DNA of 64,000 bases from Anaeromassilibacillus sp. An250. Its GTDB lineage: Bacteria > Bacillota > Clostridia > Oscillospirales > Acutalibacteraceae. The stretch lies in assembly GCF_002159845.1 (NCBI RefSeq), contig NZ_NFJK01000004.1, positions 62,001 through 126,000 on the forward strand, read 5' to 3'. The notes beneath the pieces are model-generated. The model worked only from the letters and a program-made list of their open reading frames with translations, was not told the origin of the DNA and did not search any database. Within the stretch, counting starts at the first letter, position 1. Each line of letters starts with the position of its first letter. Made by a program: the position numbers and the translations under genes. Shown here piece after piece: positions 21,963-29,736 of the stretch.

Positions 21963-22385
21963 ATGCGATTGCCAGATCGAAATATTGCCGCCTTGTTGAT
22001 GATTTACCGCAAAATCAACGCCTGGCGAAGCGAACACGCTGCGCCACTGGGTCTTTCCTCCTCGCAGGTTACCATTATCATTGAGACCTGCAAAAATAGC
22101 GGCATTTCCCAGACCGAGCTTGTGAAACGGCTTTCCCACGAAAAAAGCGTCGTGGCAAAAGCCATTGCAAAGCTGATTGCAGCCGGATATATCACCAGGG
22201 AGCAGAATCCCAAGGACAAGCGGGCGTTTAACCTGTTCCCAACGGAAAAGGCCCAGGAGGTCTACCCCATGTTGGTCGGACAGGGGGACCAGTGTATGGA
22301 ACGGCTGACCGCAGGATTGACGCCGGAGGAAAAGGAGGAGCTGGGCGTCCTGCTGGAAAAAATGGTGGAGAACACACAGCTTTAA
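21963..22385 (+). CDS. MarR-family transcriptional regulator
   Basis: 140 residues, normal length. A winged helix-turn-helix is centred on SQTELVKRLSHEKSVVAKAI (about residues 45-65), with the wing ITREQNPKDKRAFNLFPT, typical of MarR repressors of drug or stress genes. The start ATG 21963 has AAGGTGAAGG directly upstream. No obvious target gene is adjacent; polA follows on the same strand from its own promoter. Divergent from dusB, whose promoter lies within 40 bases. Confidence 0.9.
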   Translation: MRLPDRNIAALLMIYRKINAWRSEHAAPLGLSSSQVTIIIETCKNSGISQTELVKRLSHEKSVVAKAIAKLIAAGYITREQNPKDKRAFNLFPTEKAQEVYPMLVGQGDQCMERLTAGLTPEEKEELGVLLEKMVENTQL

Positions 22386-22495
22386 GGCGTTCGGAAAACC
22401 AAAGAGGGCGGGCCCCACGGCCGCCGGTTTCTCCCTTTTGCGGTGTGGTTGCCCCAGCAGGCGGAAATAATAAAGGATAGATGCTATTATAGCAC

Positions 22496-22524
22496 TTAAA
22501 ATTCCCTTCGGAAAGTGATATAAT
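22496..22524 (+). promoter_or_regulatory. Promoter of polA
   Basis: TTAAAA, 17-base spacer, TATAAT. The -10 box is consensus and the -35 weak. Confidence 0.55.
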
Positions 22525-22557
22525 AAAACAATTGACTGATAAGACGGGAGAGACATC

Positions 22558-25170
22558 ATGAAACTGCTTGTTTTGGACGGAAACAGCATCCTGAACCGCG
22601 CCTTTTATGGCATCCGCCTGCTGAGCACCAAGGAGGGGCTGTATACAAACGGCATTTACGGCTTTATGACCATGCTGGAAAAGCTGAAGCATGAGACGGA
22701 GCCGGATGCGGTGGCGATTGCCTTCGACATGCGCGCCCCGACGTTCCGGCATAAAGAGTATGCAGGTTATAAGGCGCAGCGCAAGGGGATGCCGGAGGAG
22801 CTGGCGCAACAGCTGCCGAACCTCAAAGAGCTATTGCGGCTGCTGGGCTACCGCCTGGTGGAATGCGAGGGCTTTGAGGCGGACGACATCCTTGGGACGT
22901 TGGCCGCGAAATGTACGGAGACCGGGGACACCTGTGTGATTGCCACCGGGGACCGCGACAGTCTCCAGCTTGTCAATGCGCAAGTGACGGTGCGCCTGGC
23001 GGCCACCAAAATGGGACAGCCGCAGGTGACCTTTTACGATGAGGCGAAAATTTTGGAAGACTACGGCGTTACGCCGCCGCAGTTGATCGATATCAAGGCC
23101 ATCCAGGGCGACAGCTCGGACAACATCCCCGGCGTGGCGGGCATCGGCCCTAAGGGGGCGGGCGAGCTGATCCAGAAATACCATGACCTCGATCATATTT
23201 ATTCAAATATCGATACGCTGGACATCAAAGAGGGGATGCGCCAGAAGCTGATCCGCGACAAGGACAGCGCTTACCTGAGCCGCTACCTGGGCACCATCCG
23301 GCGGGATGCGCCGGTCGACACGGAGTTGGCCGACTATATCCCCACCGAAGGCGACCGGGAGGGTGCGGCGCGCCTGCTCGTCAAGCTGGAGATGTTCTCC
23401 CTAATCGAAAAATTGGGGCTGAACGTCCCCACCGCGGCGCCGGAAACGAATGTCCAGGAACCCGCCCATGAGGTGGTGCAGGGTGCGCCGGACACGCTGT
23501 TTGACCAGCTTCGCGCAGCAGGGCGCGCGGATTGCCTGGTCTGGTATGAGGATGGCCAGGTGTATCGCGTATACATCGGCCGGGAGGCCCGTGTATATGA
23601 GTTGGAAGGGATGGATTTCCTGCGCAAGCTGTGTGCGTGCAGCGAGATCCGCATCAACACCCACGACGTCAAGCCGCTGTATGCGGCGCTCGGCGGCGAA
23701 GAAATCCCGGGCGGGGCGTTTGACACCATGTTGGCAGCCTACCTGCTGAACCCGTCCGCGTCGTCCTACGATGTGACGCGGTTGGCGCAGGAATACAACC
23801 TCCCGTTGGAGCTGCCGGAGCAGGAGGCGCTCAAGCGCGGCGATGTGGAGGGGAAACGGCGGCAGACGGAGGCGCTGTTCCGCGCGCAGGCGGCGGTTTT
23901 CCCCGCGCTGGTGGACAAGCTGGCGGAACAGATCGCCCGGAACAACCAGACGGAGCTTTTGGAAACGATTGAATTGCCGCTGGCGCGCGTACTGGCACAT
24001 ATGGAGGCGATCGGCTTTTTGGTGGACGCCAAGGGCATTGCGCAGTACGGCGAGATGCTCCAGGCGGAGATCGACCGCATTCAGGGGGAGATTTACCAGT
24101 CCGTGGGCTATGAGTTCAACATCAACAGCCCGCGGCAGCTCGGCGACGCCCTCTTTGAGAAGCTCGGATTGCCGCATGGAAAAAAGACTAAGACGGGCTA
24201 TTCCACCAAGGCGGAGATTTTGGAAAACCTGCGCTATGAGCATCCAGCGGTCGAAATGATTTTGAATTACCGCAGCTTGACGAAACTGAAATCGACCTAC
24301 TGCGACGGCCTGACCAAGGTGATCGCCGCGGACGGGCGGATTCATTCCAATTTCAACCAGACCGAGACGCGCACAGGGCGCATCAGCTCCACGGAGCCCA
24401 ATTTGCAGAATATCCCGGTGCGCACGGATCTGGGACGCGAGATGCGCCGCTTCTTTGTGGCAAAAGAGGGATGTGTGCTGGTGGATGCGGACTATTCCCA
24501 GATTGAGCTGCGCGTGTTGGCGCATGTGGCGAACGACCAGAATATGATCGATGCCTTTTTGCACGACGACGACATCCACAGGATCACAGCCGCACAGGTG
24601 TTCCACATGCCGGAGCAGATGGTCACCCCGATGATGCGCAGCCGGGCCAAGGCGGTCAATTTTGGCATTGTGTACGGCATCGGCGCGTTCTCCCTGGCGA
24701 AGAACATCGGCGTTACCCGCAAGGAGGCGGAGCAATATATCCACGATTATCTGGCGCATTACAGCGGCGTGGACGATTATATGAAGCGAGTGGTGGAGCA
24801 GGCCAAGGAGCAGGGGTATGTAGAGACCATGTTTGGGCGCAGGCGCTACCTGCCGGAACTGGCGTCCTCCAATTTCAACATGCGCGCATTCGGGGAGCGT
24901 GTGGCGCGGAACATGCCCATCCAGGGCACGGCTGCGGATATCATCAAGATCGCGATGATCCGCGTGGAGGACCGGCTTCGCAAAGAAGGCATGAAGTCCC
25001 GGCTGATCTTGCAGGTACACGACGAGCTGATTGTAGAAGCGCCCGAGGACGAGGCGGAGAAGGCCGCCGCCGTCCTGACCGAGGAGATGCGCAGCGCGGC
25101 GCAGCTATCCGTTCCGCTGATCGCTGACGCCGGGATCGGCAAATCCTGGTTCGACGCCAAAGCAGGCTGA
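22558..25170 (+). CDS. polA: DNA polymerase I
   Basis: 870 residues, three domains. The 5-prime to 3-prime exonuclease (about 1-290) has the expected FEADDILGTLA and GDSSDNIPGVAGIGPKGA. The middle 3-prime to 5-prime exonuclease fold (about 310-470) shows no DxE motif in its first strand (DCLVWYEDGQVYR), so proofreading is probably lost, as in many Firmicute and thermophile PolA proteins. The polymerase (about 500-870) has DYSQIELRVLAHVA (motif A), RSRAKAVNFGIVYG (motif B, O helix) and VHDELIVEAP (motif C). ATG 22558 has GGGAGAG upstream. The stop codon is directly joined to the first unit of the tandem repeat array. Confidence 0.97.
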   Translation: MKLLVLDGNSILNRAFYGIRLLSTKEGLYTNGIYGFMTMLEKLKHETEPDAVAIAFDMRAPTFRHKEYAGYKAQRKGMPEELAQQLPNLKELLRLLGYRLVECEGFEADDILGTLAAKCTETGDTCVIATGDRDSLQLVNAQVTVRLAATKMGQPQVTFYDEAKILEDYGVTPPQLIDIKAIQGDSSDNIPGVAGIGPKGAGELIQKYHDLDHIYSNIDTLDIKEGMRQKLIRDKDSAYLSRYLGTIRRDAPVDTELADYIPTEGDREGAARLLVKLEMFSLIEKLGLNVPTAAPETNVQEPAHEVVQGAPDTLFDQLRAAGRADCLVWYEDGQVYRVYIGREARVYELEGMDFLRKLCACSEIRINTHDVKPLYAALGGEEIPGGAFDTMLAAYLLNPSASSYDVTRLAQEYNLPLELPEQEALKRGDVEGKRRQTEALFRAQAAVFPALVDKLAEQIARNNQTELLETIELPLARVLAHMEAIGFLVDAKGIAQYGEMLQAEIDRIQGEIYQSVGYEFNINSPRQLGDALFEKLGLPHGKKTKTGYSTKAEILENLRYEHPAVEMILNYRSLTKLKSTYCDGLTKVIAADGRIHSNFNQTETRTGRISSTEPNLQNIPVRTDLGREMRRFFVAKEGCVLVDADYSQIELRVLAHVANDQNMIDAFLHDDDIHRITAAQVFHMPEQMVTPMMRSRAKAVNFGIVYGIGAFSLAKNIGVTRKEAEQYIHDYLAHYSGVDDYMKRVVEQAKEQGYVETMFGRRRYLPELASSNFNMRAFGERVARNMPIQGTAADIIKIAMIRVEDRLRKEGMKSRLILQVHDELIVEAPEDEAEKAAAVLTEEMRSAAQLSVPLIADAGIGKSWFDAKAG

Positions 25171-25171
25171 G

Positions 25172-26206
25172 CAGGCTGAGCCTGCACGCACGGCCGGCGC
25201 AGGGCTTTCTGCGAAGAGCAAGCGAAGTGACGCCGGACAGAAAGGACAAGCTCCCGTCAGGCTGAGCCTGCACGCACGGCCGGCGCAGGGCTTTCTGCGA
25301 AGAGCAAGCGAAGTGACGCCGGACAGAAAGGACAAGCTCCCGTCAGGCTGAGCCTGCACGCACGGCCGGCGCGGAGCTCTCTGCGGGGAGCAAGCGAAGT
25401 GACGCCGGACAGAAAGGACAAGCTCCCGTCAGGCTGAGCCTGCACGCACGGCCGGCGCAGGGCTTTCTGCGAAGAGCAAGCGAAGTGACGCCGGACAGAA
25501 AGGGGAAGCTTCCGCCAGGCTGAGCCTGCACGCACGGCCGGCGCAGGGCTTTCTGCGGAGAGCAAGCGAAGTGTACGCCGGACAGAAAGGGGAAGCTCCC
25601 GTCAGGCTGAGCCTGAATGCACAGCCGGCGCAGGGCTCTCTGCGAAGAGCAAGCGAAGTGACGCCGGACAGAAAGGGGAAGCTCCCGTCAGGCTGAGCCT
25701 GCACGCACGGCCGGCGCAGGGCTCTCTGCGAAGAGCAAGCGAAGTGTACGCCGGACAGAAAGGATAAGCTCCCGTCAGGCTGAGCCTGCACGCACAGCCG
25801 GCGCGGGGCTTTCTGCGGGGAGCAAGCGAAGTGTACGCCGGACAGAAAGGGGAAGCTCCCGTCAGGCTGAGCCTGCACGCACGGCCGGCGCGGGGCTCTC
25901 TGCGGAGAGCAAGCGAAGTGACGCCGGACAGAAAGGACAAGCTCCCGTCAGGCTGAGCCTGCACGCACGGCCGGCGCGGGGCTCTCTGCGGAGAGCAAGC
26001 GAAGTGTACGCCGGACAGAAAGGACAAGCTCCCGTCAGGCTGAGCCTGCACGCACGGCCGGCGCGGGGCTTTCTGCGGGGAGCAAGCGAAGTGACGCCGG
26101 ACAGAAAGGACAAGCTCCCGTCAGGCTGAGCCTGAATGCACGGCCGGCGCGGGGCTCTCTGCGGGGAGCAAGCGAAGTGACGCCGGACAGAAAGGACAAG
26201 CTCCCG
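25172..26206. repeat. Tandem array, 12 copies of an 86/87-bp unit
   Basis: Units begin CAGGCTGAGCCTG at 25172, 25258, 25344, 25430, 25516, 25603, 25689, 25776, 25863, 25949, 26036 and 26122; the last ends near 26206. Length is 86, or 87 where GTGACGCC reads GTGTACGCC (copies 5, 7, 8, 10). Inside each unit: the palindrome CAGGC-TGA-GCCTG, a CCGGCG/CGCCGG pair, CTTTCTG/CAGAAAG in some copies, and a hairpin GCTYTC-TGCG-RRGAGC. The unit is not a multiple of 3, so long frames on the minus strand through it are not taken as genes. It begins 2 bases after the polA stop and fills the interval to rlmA. No family is recognised. Confidence 0.95.
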
Positions 26207-26243
26207 AAGAGCAAATGATAATGAAAAGAAGGGAGGGGGAAAC

Positions 26244-27062
26244 GTGTTTATCTGCCCTGTCTGCGGAAATCTGTTGCAGAAAGAGGAAAAAGCCTATACG
26301 TGTCCGAAGGGGCACAACTACGATTTGGCGAAGGAGGGATACGTTTATCTCCTTCCGCCCAATAAAAAGCATTCAAAGGACCCCGGCGACAACAAACAGA
26401 TGGTGGCCGCACGGCGTGCGTTCCTGGAGACGGGCCTATATCAGCCCTTTAGCGATGAGCTGAACCGGCTGGCGCTGGAGTATCTTGGGGAAAACAGGTC
26501 GCCAGTTGTGCTGGACGCAGGATGCGGAGAAGGCTATTACACCGGCCGGTTGGCGCTGGCGCTCGGGGAACGGGCGCGGGTGTTTGGGTTTGATATATCC
26601 AAATGCGCGGTGCGCGCTGCGGCAAAGCGGTACCGGGAGATCGCGTTTGCGGTGGGAAGCAGCTTCGGGATCCCTTTTGCGGATGCTGCGGCCGACCTGG
26701 TGGTGAACGTCTTCGCGCCGATTGTCCCCGAAGAGCTGGCGCGCGTGGTCAAACCGGGCGGCCACTTGATTTTGGCGGTGCCGGGGGAAAGGCATCTCTA
26801 TGGATTGAAAGAGATTTTGTATGAACATCCGTATGAGAACCCCTATAAGGAGACGGAGTATCCTGGATTCACCTTTTTGCAGCGCACTGCGGTTGCAAGG
26901 GAAATCACGATCACCGATCCGCAGACCATGCTCAATTTGTTTGCAATGACCCCATATTATTGGAAAACCGGCGTTGAGGGCGGGGAAAACCTGCGCCAAA
27001 CGCAGCGGTTGGAGACACATATTGAATTTCATTTTCTGGTCTACCAAAGAAATCTTACATAA
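26244..27062 (+). CDS. rlmA: 23S rRNA (guanine-N1)-methyltransferase RlmA type
   Basis: 272 residues. SAM-dependent methylation of G745 or G748 of 23S rRNA is the family role. An N-terminal zinc ribbon (CPVC at residues 4-7, then C and H in YTCPKGHNYDLAKEGY) is followed by a Rossmann methyltransferase with VLDAGCGEGYYTG as SAM site and FGFDISKCAVRAA. The GTG start at 26244 has GGGAGG 7 bases upstream. It lies directly behind the repeat array, so array length sets its distance from polA. Methylation in this group affects macrolide or tylosin binding in some bacteria. Confidence 0.92.
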   Translation: MFICPVCGNLLQKEEKAYTCPKGHNYDLAKEGYVYLLPPNKKHSKDPGDNKQMVAARRAFLETGLYQPFSDELNRLALEYLGENRSPVVLDAGCGEGYYTGRLALALGERARVFGFDISKCAVRAAAKRYREIAFAVGSSFGIPFADAAADLVVNVFAPIVPEELARVVKPGGHLILAVPGERHLYGLKEILYEHPYENPYKETEYPGFTFLQRTAVAREITITDPQTMLNLFAMTPYYWKTGVEGGENLRQTQRLETHIEFHFLVYQRNLT

Positions 27063-27085
27063 ATTTCCGAAAGGGGCGGGCACGC

Positions 27086-28258
27086 TTGGAAACGACAAAA
27101 CGCGCGCGTGAGGAAGTCCGATGGGAGGACATGCTGTTTCTCCTTTTGATTTCCGGCGCCGCGCTGCTGACGCGGTTTTACTTATTTCCGATTGAGTCGA
27201 ACGACTATCAACAATTCTTACAGAACTGGTTTGCGACCTTGAAGGAGAACGGCGGGCTGGCGGCCATCGGGATGAACATCGGCGATTATATGCCGCCGTA
27301 CTTTTATATTTTAGCGTTGCTGACCTATCTGCCGTTCAACGATTTGTATTTGATCAAATTGGTCTCCTGTACGGCGGATTTTGTATTGGCCTATTATGTG
27401 ATGCGGGCGGTTAGCCTGCGGTATCCCGGAAGGCCCCAGGGCTTTATGGCCTATGCGGTGGTGCTCTTTTTGCCCTCGGTGGTGTTGAATTCCGCGGCAT
27501 GGGCACAGTGCGACGCGATGTATACTGCGGCGTTGCTCGCATGCCTGTATTATCTGTTGGTCAACCGCCCCAACCGGGCGGTGCTGGCGTTTTCCATTGC
27601 GTTTGTCTTGAAATTGCAGGCGATTTTCTTTGCGCCGTTTTTGCTTTTGTTGGTTTTGAAGCGGAAGATCAAATTGCGCAGTTTGGTGCTAATCCCAGCA
27701 GTATATATTCTATCGATTATACCAGCTGCAATCATGGGCAGGAGCCTATGGGACCTGCTCACCGTGTATGTCTCGCAGTCAAAGCTCTACACGAGCCTTT
27801 GCATGTCCATCCCGAATTTGTATGCGTTTCTCGGGAATGTCGCCTCCGAACCGTTGGGGGATGCGGGCGTCATCTTCGCGGGCGGCGCGGTGCTGATGCT
27901 GCTCTATGCGCTGTACCGGAAGGAATACACCATCACGCCGGACATTCTGGTGACCATCGGGCTGCTGTTTGCCATCTTAATGCCGTTTATCCTGCCGCAC
28001 ATGCATGAACGGTACTATTTCTTGGCGGACATCGTCAGCGTGGTGTTCGCGTTCTATTTCCCGAAAAAGCTCTATGCGGCGGTGATTATGTGCGTTTCGT
28101 CCGCCTGTGCGACCGCGAATTATCTGTTTGGGCTGGTATATTACCCGCAGCAGCTTTTGGCCGTTGCAATCCTGATCAACCTGGTATTGCTGATGAAGCA
28201 TCTGTGGGAGCTGCTTTCGCAGAACCCCATCCAGCGGCGCGTGGAGGCGGCGGTATGA
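27086..28258 (+). CDS. Multipass membrane glycosyltransferase (GT-C fold, GT39/GT87-like)
   Basis: 390 residues with about 9-10 transmembrane helices. The first extracytoplasmic loop after helix 1 starts ESNDYQQFLQNW, the position of the catalytic acidic residue in GT-C enzymes that use lipid-linked sugar donors. HMHERYYFL in the distal half is a typical loop in this group. A role in decorating a surface glycan or lipid is inferred. The TTG start at 27086 has AAAGGGG 9 bases upstream. It overlaps rimI by 4 bases (ATGA) and lies 23 bases after rlmA. Confidence 0.8.
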   Translation: METTKRAREEVRWEDMLFLLLISGAALLTRFYLFPIESNDYQQFLQNWFATLKENGGLAAIGMNIGDYMPPYFYILALLTYLPFNDLYLIKLVSCTADFVLAYYVMRAVSLRYPGRPQGFMAYAVVLFLPSVVLNSAAWAQCDAMYTAALLACLYYLLVNRPNRAVLAFSIAFVLKLQAIFFAPFLLLLVLKRKIKLRSLVLIPAVYILSIIPAAIMGRSLWDLLTVYVSQSKLYTSLCMSIPNLYAFLGNVASEPLGDAGVIFAGGAVLMLLYALYRKEYTITPDILVTIGLLFAILMPFILPHMHERYYFLADIVSVVFAFYFPKKLYAAVIMCVSSACATANYLFGLVYYPQQLLAVAILINLVLLMKHLWELLSQNPIQRRVEAAV

Positions 28259-28707
28259 GCCTTGCGATCGTTCCCATGGAGGGGCGGCATCTGGACGAAC
28301 TGGCGGAGATCAGCCGGTTGTGCTTTTCCATGCCGTGGAGCCGGGACGGGCTGGCGGCGGAGCTCTCCAGCGATACGGCCCATTTTTGGGTGGCGGAAGA
28401 GGCGGGCCGCTGCCTTGGGTTTGCCGGGATGCACGCGGTGTGCGGGGAGTGCTATGTGGACCTGGTCGCCGTGCATCCGGCGGAACGCCGCCGGGGGATT
28501 GGCGAACAGCTGGTCCGGCAGATGATCGCATGGATGGAGGAACAGCACGGGGAATTCATCACCCTGGAGGTGCGGGTGTCGAATGCGCCCGCGATTGCCC
28601 TGTATGAAAAGCTGGGCTTTGAGCAGGCCGGCGTGCGCAAGGGGTTTTATGAGGACAACCACGAGGATGCCTTGCTCCTGACCCGGCCCGCAAAGGGGAT
28701 TCAATAA
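28255..28707 (+). CDS. rimI: Ribosomal protein bS18 alanine N-acetyltransferase RimI
   Basis: 150 residues, GNAT fold. Family marks: FSMPWSRDGLAAEL near the start, YVDLVAVHPAERRRGIGEQLV as acetyl-CoA site, and LEVRVSNAPAIALYEKLGFEQAGVRKGFY, the RimI closing block. It acetylates the N terminus of protein S18 in E. coli; in Firmicutes targets are less clear. ATG 28255 overlaps the upstream stop by 4 bases, so it is translationally coupled. rimI-tsaD adjacency is common in Bacillota, usually with tsaB and tsaE, which are not in this window. Confidence 0.93.
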   Translation: MSLAIVPMEGRHLDELAEISRLCFSMPWSRDGLAAELSSDTAHFWVAEEAGRCLGFAGMHAVCGECYVDLVAVHPAERRRGIGEQLVRQMIAWMEEQHGEFITLEVRVSNAPAIALYEKLGFEQAGVRKGFYEDNHEDALLLTRPAKGIQ

Positions 28708-28719
28708 AGGGGGAAGCTT

Positions 28720-29736
28720 ATGAAGATATTGGCATTGGAGAGTTCCTGCGACGAGACCGCTGCGGCGGTTGTGGAGGATGGGCGGCTGGTCCGTTCGTCC
28801 GTCATTGCGTCGCAGGTGGAGGAACATAAATTGTACGGGGGCGTGGTGCCGGAGATCGCCTCGCGTAGGCATTCGGAGGCCATTGTCCCGGTTACGCAGA
28901 AGGCCCTGGACGACGCTGGTGTGACGCTCGACGAAATCGATGCCATCGCCGTGACATACGCCCCCGGTCTAATCGGGGCGCTGTTGGTGGGGGTCAATTT
29001 TGCAAAGGGGTTGTCGCTCTCCGCGAAAAAGCCGCTGATCCCCGTCCATCATCTGCGCTCCCATATCGCGGCAAACTATATCACCGCGCCGGAACTGGAG
29101 CCGCCCTTTTTGTGCCTGGTGGTGTCCGGAGGCCATACGCACATTGTGGAGGTCAACGGGTATACGGACCTCCGTGTGATCGGCTGCACAAGGGACGACG
29201 CGGCGGGCGAAGCCTTTGACAAGGCGGCGCGCGCCATGGGGATGCCGTATCCGGGCGGCGTGGAGATGGACCGGGTTGCAGAGAACGGGGACCCGATGGC
29301 GTTCCGCCTGCCCCATCCCAAGGTGGACGGCGCGCCCTACGATTTCAGCTTTTCCGGCTTGAAGACGGCGGTGATCAACCTGATCCACAACGCCAAACAG
29401 AAGGGCGAGGAGCTGCCGGTCCCGGATCTGGCCGCTTCCTTCCGCAAAGCGGTGGTGGACTGCCTGGTGCAGAATTTTGTAAAAGCGGCGGAAGCGTCTG
29501 GAAGCAAGAAGCTTGTGATTGCGGGCGGCGTATCGGCAAATTCCCTGCTGCGGCGCCGTCTGGACGAAGAGTGCAGAAAGCACGGATGGAAGCTGTATAT
29601 GCCGGCGTTAAACCTCTGCGGCGACAATGCGGCGATGGTGGGCGCGCAGGGATATTACGAATTCTTGGCGGGGAATACCGCGGGGCTGGACTTAAACGCC
29701 TGCGCGGAAATGCCCATACAGGGCCCACAGGGATGA
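28720..29736 (+). CDS. tsaD: tRNA threonylcarbamoyladenosine synthase subunit TsaD
   Basis: 338 residues. With TsaB and TsaE it transfers threonylcarbamoyl to A37 of ANN-decoding tRNAs. ASKHA fold with ALESSCDETAAAV at the start, the metal-binding H-x-E-like SRRHSEAIVP at about residues 49-58, HHLRSHIAAN (about 108-117), SGGHTHIVEV and the C-terminal CGDNAAMVGAQG with the third metal ligand. ATG 28720 has AAGGGGGAA upstream, 12 bases after rimI. Confidence 0.97.
   Translation: MKILALESSCDETAAAVVEDGRLVRSSVIASQVEEHKLYGGVVPEIASRRHSEAIVPVTQKALDDAGVTLDEIDAIAVTYAPGLIGALLVGVNFAKGLSLSAKKPLIPVHHLRSHIAANYITAPELEPPFLCLVVSGGHTHIVEVNGYTDLRVIGCTRDDAAGEAFDKAARAMGMPYPGGVEMDRVAENGDPMAFRLPHPKVDGAPYDFSFSGLKTAVINLIHNAKQKGEELPVPDLAASFRKAVVDCLVQNFVKAAEASGSKKLVIAGGVSANSLLRRRLDEECRKHGWKLYMPALNLCGDNAAMVGAQGYYEFLAGNTAGLDLNACAEMPIQGPQG

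Follow-up and report, generated by a model that had tools for sequence, protein, structure and literature searches.

MIRUs (mycobacterial interspersed repetitive units; Supply 1997, 2000) are inserted in the sense orientation at overlapping stop and start codons. As described in PMC2734929 their units are 40–100 bp long and occupy 41 places, 12 of which are polymorphic in copy number, and PMC4213456 describes several copies between two genes of an operon. The BOX, RUP, and SPRITE repeats of pneumococcus are presented in PMC3049150 as short, folded, and modular sequences with repeatable parts that occur in clusters and as nested insertions, and the authors read them as slow-moving parasites. 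Here we describe a 12-copy array in a 64,000-nucleotide stretch of the Anaeromassilibacillus sp. An250 genome (the window), the unit of which is probably a non-autonomous structured interspersed repeat of ~87 bp, belonging to a clade-wide family, that was inserted at the polA stop codon and amplified in tandem. Such an element would place a MIRU/BOX-like lifestyle, small folded repeats at gene ends that multiply in tandem, in gut Clostridia.

The array is genuine and lies directly behind the stop codon of polA (22558..25170, plus strand), an ORF encoding a DNA polymerase I of 870 residues that ends in FDAKAG (Pfam DNA_pol_A, 2.2e-164). TRF reported 12.0 copies with a period of 86 at 25172-26206 (score 1761), and splitting at CAGGCTGAGCCTG gave units of 86, 86, 86, 86, 87, 86, 87, 87, 86, 87, 86, and 85 bp, in agreement with the initial annotation, which had placed 12 units here beginning 2 bases past the polA stop. 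All on the plus strand, these units occupy 25172..25257, 25258..25343, 25344..25429, 25430..25515, 25516..25602, 25603..25688, 25689..25775, 25776..25862, 25863..25948, 25949..26035, 26036..26121, and 26122..26206; in the register of the first hairpin the array spans 25171..26206, where covariance model (CM) R1 likewise has 12 matches. Seven units are 86 bp long, four are 87 bp, and the final copy of 85 bp lacks the junction T. The single T said to separate the two main length classes was indeed the difference between them (GTGACGCC or GTGTACGCC).

Each unit has the plan seen in copy 1, in which fold and family covariation define two plus-strand hairpins followed by a conserved tail. P1 (25171..25185) is GCAGGC TGA GCCTGC with the stop triplet as its loop, P2 (25194..25236) is CCGGCG ... 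CGCCGG around a variable loop, and the tail (25237..25256) reads ACAGAAAGGACAAGCTCCCG in alignments A2 and A4. The polA stop TGA (25168-25170) ends the half-P1 sequence GCAGGCTGA (25162..25170, plus strand), which comprises the last two codons of polA plus the stop and matches the element head over its first nine bases. The stop thus does lie within a duplicated stretch, as had been proposed, since this sequence repeats the 5' half of the first hairpin of the unit.

The units are less uniform than the near-perfect identity originally claimed for them. Mean pairwise identity was about 94%, 13 of the 87 aligned columns were variable, and only copies 1 and 2 were fully identical. Adjacent copies showed no significant extra likeness compared with shuffled order (fraction 0.119). 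Recent expansion had been proposed; the array of tandem copies was confirmed, whereas 94% identity without significant likeness between neighbors gives no pointer to a very recent burst. None of the 13 variable columns fell in P2 or in the five inner pairs of P1 (0/22 versus 13/65, p 0.016). However, the outermost P1 pair, which spans the unit junction, holds two of them, and counting it (2/24 versus 11/63, p 0.24) removes the constraint effect within the array, from which we therefore draw no claim. Two candidate roles were rejected: minus-strand frames cross several units, yet with unit lengths of 86 and 87 bp the reading frame changes along the array, so no shared protein results, and the region 24900-26500 contains one terminator-like site, on the minus strand, where 2.1 are expected, which does not support an intrinsic terminator. 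The copy count comes from a single assembly of 76 contigs; an assembly artefact is unlikely as the source of the array, because arrays of related elements are also present in other assemblies.

The element would work much as MIRU and BOX repeats do, although we assign it to neither group. Like a MIRU, it has a unit length within 40–100 bp and is found between genes, both as scattered copies and as head-to-tail arrays. Placement at stop and start codons of the MIRU type would fit at polA/rlmA (the only junction checked for overlap) and in the stop proximity described below. This likeness is one of description rather than of sequence comparison, and unlike a MIRU the element keeps two covarying hairpins. 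MIRUs are not known to have conserved dyad symmetry or palindromes. Inverted repeats at the ends and duplicated target sites mark BOX and RUP; none emerged for the element from a comparison of the two related genomes G002 and G003, which gave no clean empty site. The element resembles BOX, RUP, and SPRITE in being short, folded, modular, and clustered, and placement at stop codons is a feature of the element that the account of those repeats in PMC3049150 does not describe. Small size, palindromic structure, and location outside genes are also shared with the REP/BIME repeats of REP/RAYT systems (PMC2817692).

Two known systems were rejected on the sequence of the array itself or on the enzymes expected. 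Integron attC sites have the core motifs GTTRRRY and RYYYAAC, and the array has 0 such core sites on either strand. The hallmark of REP/RAYT systems is a GTAG tetranucleotide beside the hairpin; the array, the only region scanned for it, has 0 GTAG and 0 CTAC on both strands, and the Y1 transposase PF01797 (E<=0.001), the sole enzyme family searched for, had 0 matches in the element-bearing genomes G000, G002, and G003. G001, which belongs to the genus of the window, has 6 PF01797 matches, though only 2 weak elements.

The exact array unit has 12 matches in the host genome, all of them inside the array. The initial annotation had suggested a search for dispersed copies, and this was positive in the form of diverged relatives in the genus of the window and four further genera. 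These relatives share the plan with different letters: P1, the sequence ACGGC, P2 with a loop that varies, and, at the end, a tail near GACAGAAAGGACAAGCTCCCG. The P1 hairpin has six pairs and a loop of 3 nt (GCAGGC TGA GCCTGC, CCAAAC TGA GTTTGG, and others), some heads being shorter, and P2 is of the type CCGGCG/CGCCGG, of the type CCCGCC/GGCGGG, or of a third type that begins CGCGGGC. Across 70 elements P1 and P2 covary, with 93.5% of pair cells standard versus 70.1% after shuffling and no more than 41.5% in slid controls, and 10 of the 12 pairs changed on both sides; note that the fitting of alignment A4 to the structure makes these pairing statistics lean in its favor. G001 and G003 carry P1 at the same place in the 16S-23S spacer, one genome as CGAGGT-TGA-ACCTCG and the other as TAAGGC-TGA-GCCTTA, with three double changes that keep the pairing. 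Single-sequence folding energy was weak evidence (z above -2 in 11 of the 13 elements), and the two elements with lower z-scores (L019 and L021a) adopt folds that differ from the consensus P2. A search of 22000-29000 against Rfam 15 gave no match at the gathering score, the single match up to E 1 being a sub-gathering Gut-1 hit outside the array, and five related loci gave rRNA and tRNA matches only. Among the literature titles listed, none dealt with such a repeat in this bacterial group.

An initial search of 60 genomes, the host genome included, found matches in four, all of the genus of the window and weak in the three others. CM R1, built from 14 sequences and used at E<=0.1, gave 19 matches in the host genome (12 of which are the array), 2 weak matches in G001, 33 in G002, and 46 in G003. 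Scans with CM R2 across the family found matches in at least 11 of 250 genomes and at least 5 of 135 genera (that of the window and four others), and scans with the same model across the order found them in at least 3 of 197 genomes, all of the genus of the window; these counts are lower bounds, as 17 and 22 candidates, respectively, were scored per genome, and the covariance model E-values are rough. For a PolA tree 29 genomes were searched, of which one gave no match and two were omitted (G004, with an inner stop, and G037, in two pieces). On the resulting 26 chosen rows, which are a deliberate rather than random sample of bearers, cover a minority of the genera of the family, and include G001 as a bearer on its two weak matches, possession of the element requires 2 changes versus 8.9 in shuffles. 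All bearers fall within a 13-row fork (support 86/86) in which only G028 lacks matches, which fits a single origin in the sampled clade with later loss. No element was matched on a phage or plasmid, and one exact 26-base pattern was absent from viral contigs.

The elements were seen to cluster in G002 (C33:4041-125425 and C41) and in G003 (C9:402666-493780 and C12:1138264-1221066; loci L085-L100). One element-dense region holds dnaA and dnaN, and two G003 stretches of <100 kb carry 15 and 13 of the 46 matches.

Behind the array, rlmA encodes a 23S rRNA methyltransferase and has a GTG start behind an GGGAGGGGG stretch (26244..27062, plus strand; ORF with Pfam Zn_ribbon_RlmA, 3.9e-18). The polA stop and the GTG at 26244 are 1073 nt apart, and the array does add the more than 1 kb that had been noted. 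Outside the genus, rlmA starts at most about 20 nt from the end of polA in eight of nine sampled clade genomes, and the ninth (G141) had no rlmA within the polA flank examined. Among eight named loci outside the genus, six have rlmA adjoining polA, one (L110) has a gap of ~120 nt with no element, and one (L118) gave no rlmA match. In all four genomes of the genus rlmA is still behind polA, but separated from it by 75 to 1073 nt. The gap is 75 nt in G001, the nearest sampled relative (PolA 91% identical); G003 has ~730 nt and G002 ~910 nt. At the polA stop G002 and G003 have one element of a different type from that in the window, plus further repeat material. A remnant of the element at the G001 site was rejected, the best of three similar scores in a search of 501 bases being 7.7 bits (E 0.019); without a convincing element in G001 the polA site differs within the genus. 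These gap compositions indicate that the junction opened within the genus with contents that vary between species, and the L110 and G001 gaps indicate that it can open without a repeat. The PolA C-terminus is AKS in G002 and G003, AKLG in G001, and AKA in six of the nine clade genomes outside the genus. Because the two genes are adjacent in related genera, the proposal that the array forms the polA 3' UTR is plausible.

These comparisons point to the following course of events. Within the genus the element would have inserted between polA and rlmA, precisely at the polA stop, either once in an ancestor or repeatedly, and so have separated two genes that lie side by side or overlap in related genera. 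PolA would have gained only about one residue, because the head of the element carries a stop triplet in its hairpin loop. In the lineage of the window, slippage or unequal recombination would most likely then have expanded the element into 12 head-to-tail copies. The main effect of the array would be passive, that of a folded spacer of ~1 kb by which rlmA is uncoupled from polA, and it would have no selected function. The family itself would have been inherited down the clade, with heads and bodies exchanged between copies and occasional tandem growth, and its spread would presumably be driven in trans by an enzyme. This account builds on the anatomy, covariation, and relatives described above, on the comparison with unopened junctions at the level of the genus, and on the sense enrichment at stops described below.

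Tandem growth and exchange are seen at other sites. G238 has a 6-copy array of 87 bp units behind spoIIP, two copies follow argJ in G002 and likewise in G003, and a second array in the host genome has a period of 156 made up of element plus spacer. At the dnaA site G002 and G003 have the same body of the element with a different P1, and swapped heads or whole elements are found at the orthologous dnaA, argJ, and polA sites. Many sites are common to the two genomes (polA, dnaA, dnaN, gpr, and argJ), in keeping with old insertions that have stayed in place. Several results stand against the account above, among them these shared sites and the junctions opened without the repeat: no mobilizing enzyme was found in the search for the Y1 transposase family, no target-site duplication was found, and the comparison of G002 with G003 gave no clean single-element empty site, the differing sites holding other repeat material in the other species. 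Moreover, the compensatory P1 changes in the rRNA spacer suggest selection on the fold, something that a purely passive repeat could do without.

For placement, the set analyzed consisted of listed model matches and fetched loci rather than every copy and comprised 167 distinct elements, of which 145 do not lie behind another copy and 22 were omitted. A same-strand stop (ORFs of at least 100 codons) lay wholly upstream within 15 nt in 28 of the 145, versus 5.2% of random intergenic positions, and the antisense mirror of this arrangement was found in 5. The enrichment was 26/145 versus 3.0% when ORFs had to span 200 codons or more; orthologous G002/G003 pairs were counted separately, so these tests are not independent. 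Earlier counts (27/82 versus 4.9%, with 4 of 86 distinct rows omitted as <70 nt, and 49/145 versus 10.2%) were inflated, because the stop in the P1 loop itself ends chance frames. A count with a stricter gene call was 31/145 versus 9.3%. Among 57 listed upstream frames the commonest offsets were a stop just before P1 (13) and a stop that is the P1 loop (12), the latter being partly trivial since a chance frame ends there too. Genes with an element at the stop include polA, dnaA, dnaN, argJ, gpr, and spoIIP (Pfam, one member each), and the gpr stop carries one in G002, G003, G238, and G129, which together represent three genera.

The main rival explanation is that the element is an RNA module selected for transcript ends, its sense-oriented hairpin pair acting against exonucleases at the 5' end where transcription starts or at a cistron border marked by the stop codon, with the array as a multiplied module. 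We consider this unlikely but serious. It would account for the sense bias at stops (28 versus 5) and for the three pair-keeping double changes at the orthologous rRNA spacer place. It would also account for an element whose first base is the base right after a tRNA-Ala gene and for G104, in which 8 of 17 elements have a -10 box 3-12 nt ahead of their first base (control 2.3%), 7 of these 8 boxes being exactly TATAAT and 6 lying at exactly 8 nt; three of these eight elements have a same-strand ORF start 87-221 nt downstream. However, a simple gene call found no such start in the other five. Most elements are at neither kind of site (stop, 28/145; -10 box, 9/145, with 1/128 outside G104). The swaps at orthologous dnaA, argJ, and polA sites and the range of 2 to 46 matches per genome within the genus also argue against a selected module. 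The abutment on stops, on a tRNA end, and on the -10 boxes of one genome, with sense far exceeding antisense, makes site choice and use of the fold testable.

Elements beside tRNA-Ala were seen at L053:1501-1587, L064:184-271, and L057:1501-1587; in G001 and G003 the location is the 16S-23S spacer of the rRNA operon, whereas in G002 the element follows tRNA-Ala directly. At the G104 loci L191, L217, L219-L222, and L227 the near-fixed -10 spacing is followed by further small hairpin-like modules.

A conceivable variant, which we regard as quite unlikely, would combine mobility with function. The element would be a portable transcript-end module, a sense double hairpin with its own stop in the first loop, that lands harmlessly on gene ends and sits at transcription starts in another genus. 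It would spread by a transcription-coupled, perhaps RNA-mediated, route, with a fold that protects or defines mRNA ends.

Another explanation, in our judgment very improbable, assigns the array to rlmA as a regulatory spacer that provides its own promoter after uncoupling from polA. The plus-strand match at 26193..26222, which runs over the right end of the array, combines a -35-like AGGACA in the tail of unit 12 with GATAAT outside the array at a spacing of 18 nt, and may serve rlmA. Such sites averaged 0.0 in 50 shuffles, the adjacency to polA has been lost, and MIRU repeats between senX3 and regX3 are reported in PMC4213456 to drive regX3. The site is a consensus match of 9 of 12 letters, however, and one copy of the unit would be enough, twelve not being needed. 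The last alternative, a neutral minisatellite that is purely local and has no relatives, or else an artefact of assembly, would agree with the single genomic place of the exact unit and with the 76 contigs of the assembly but is barely credible given the related elements and arrays in separately assembled genomes and the distinct variants of all copies except 1 and 2.

We therefore retain the interspersed repeat amplified in tandem as the probable origin of the array, which could serve as a strain-typing marker if its copy number proves variable. Two further observations concern dispersed elements. Pairs in opposite orientation flank mosaic repeats of ~1 kb (L090:6620-7729, L096:1495-2577, and L093:14460-15706), parts of which recur at many places. 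In the host genome a weak element (L084:5325-5395; 20.2 bits, E 0.065) overlaps the stop codon of a gene that looks by eye like rpmJ.
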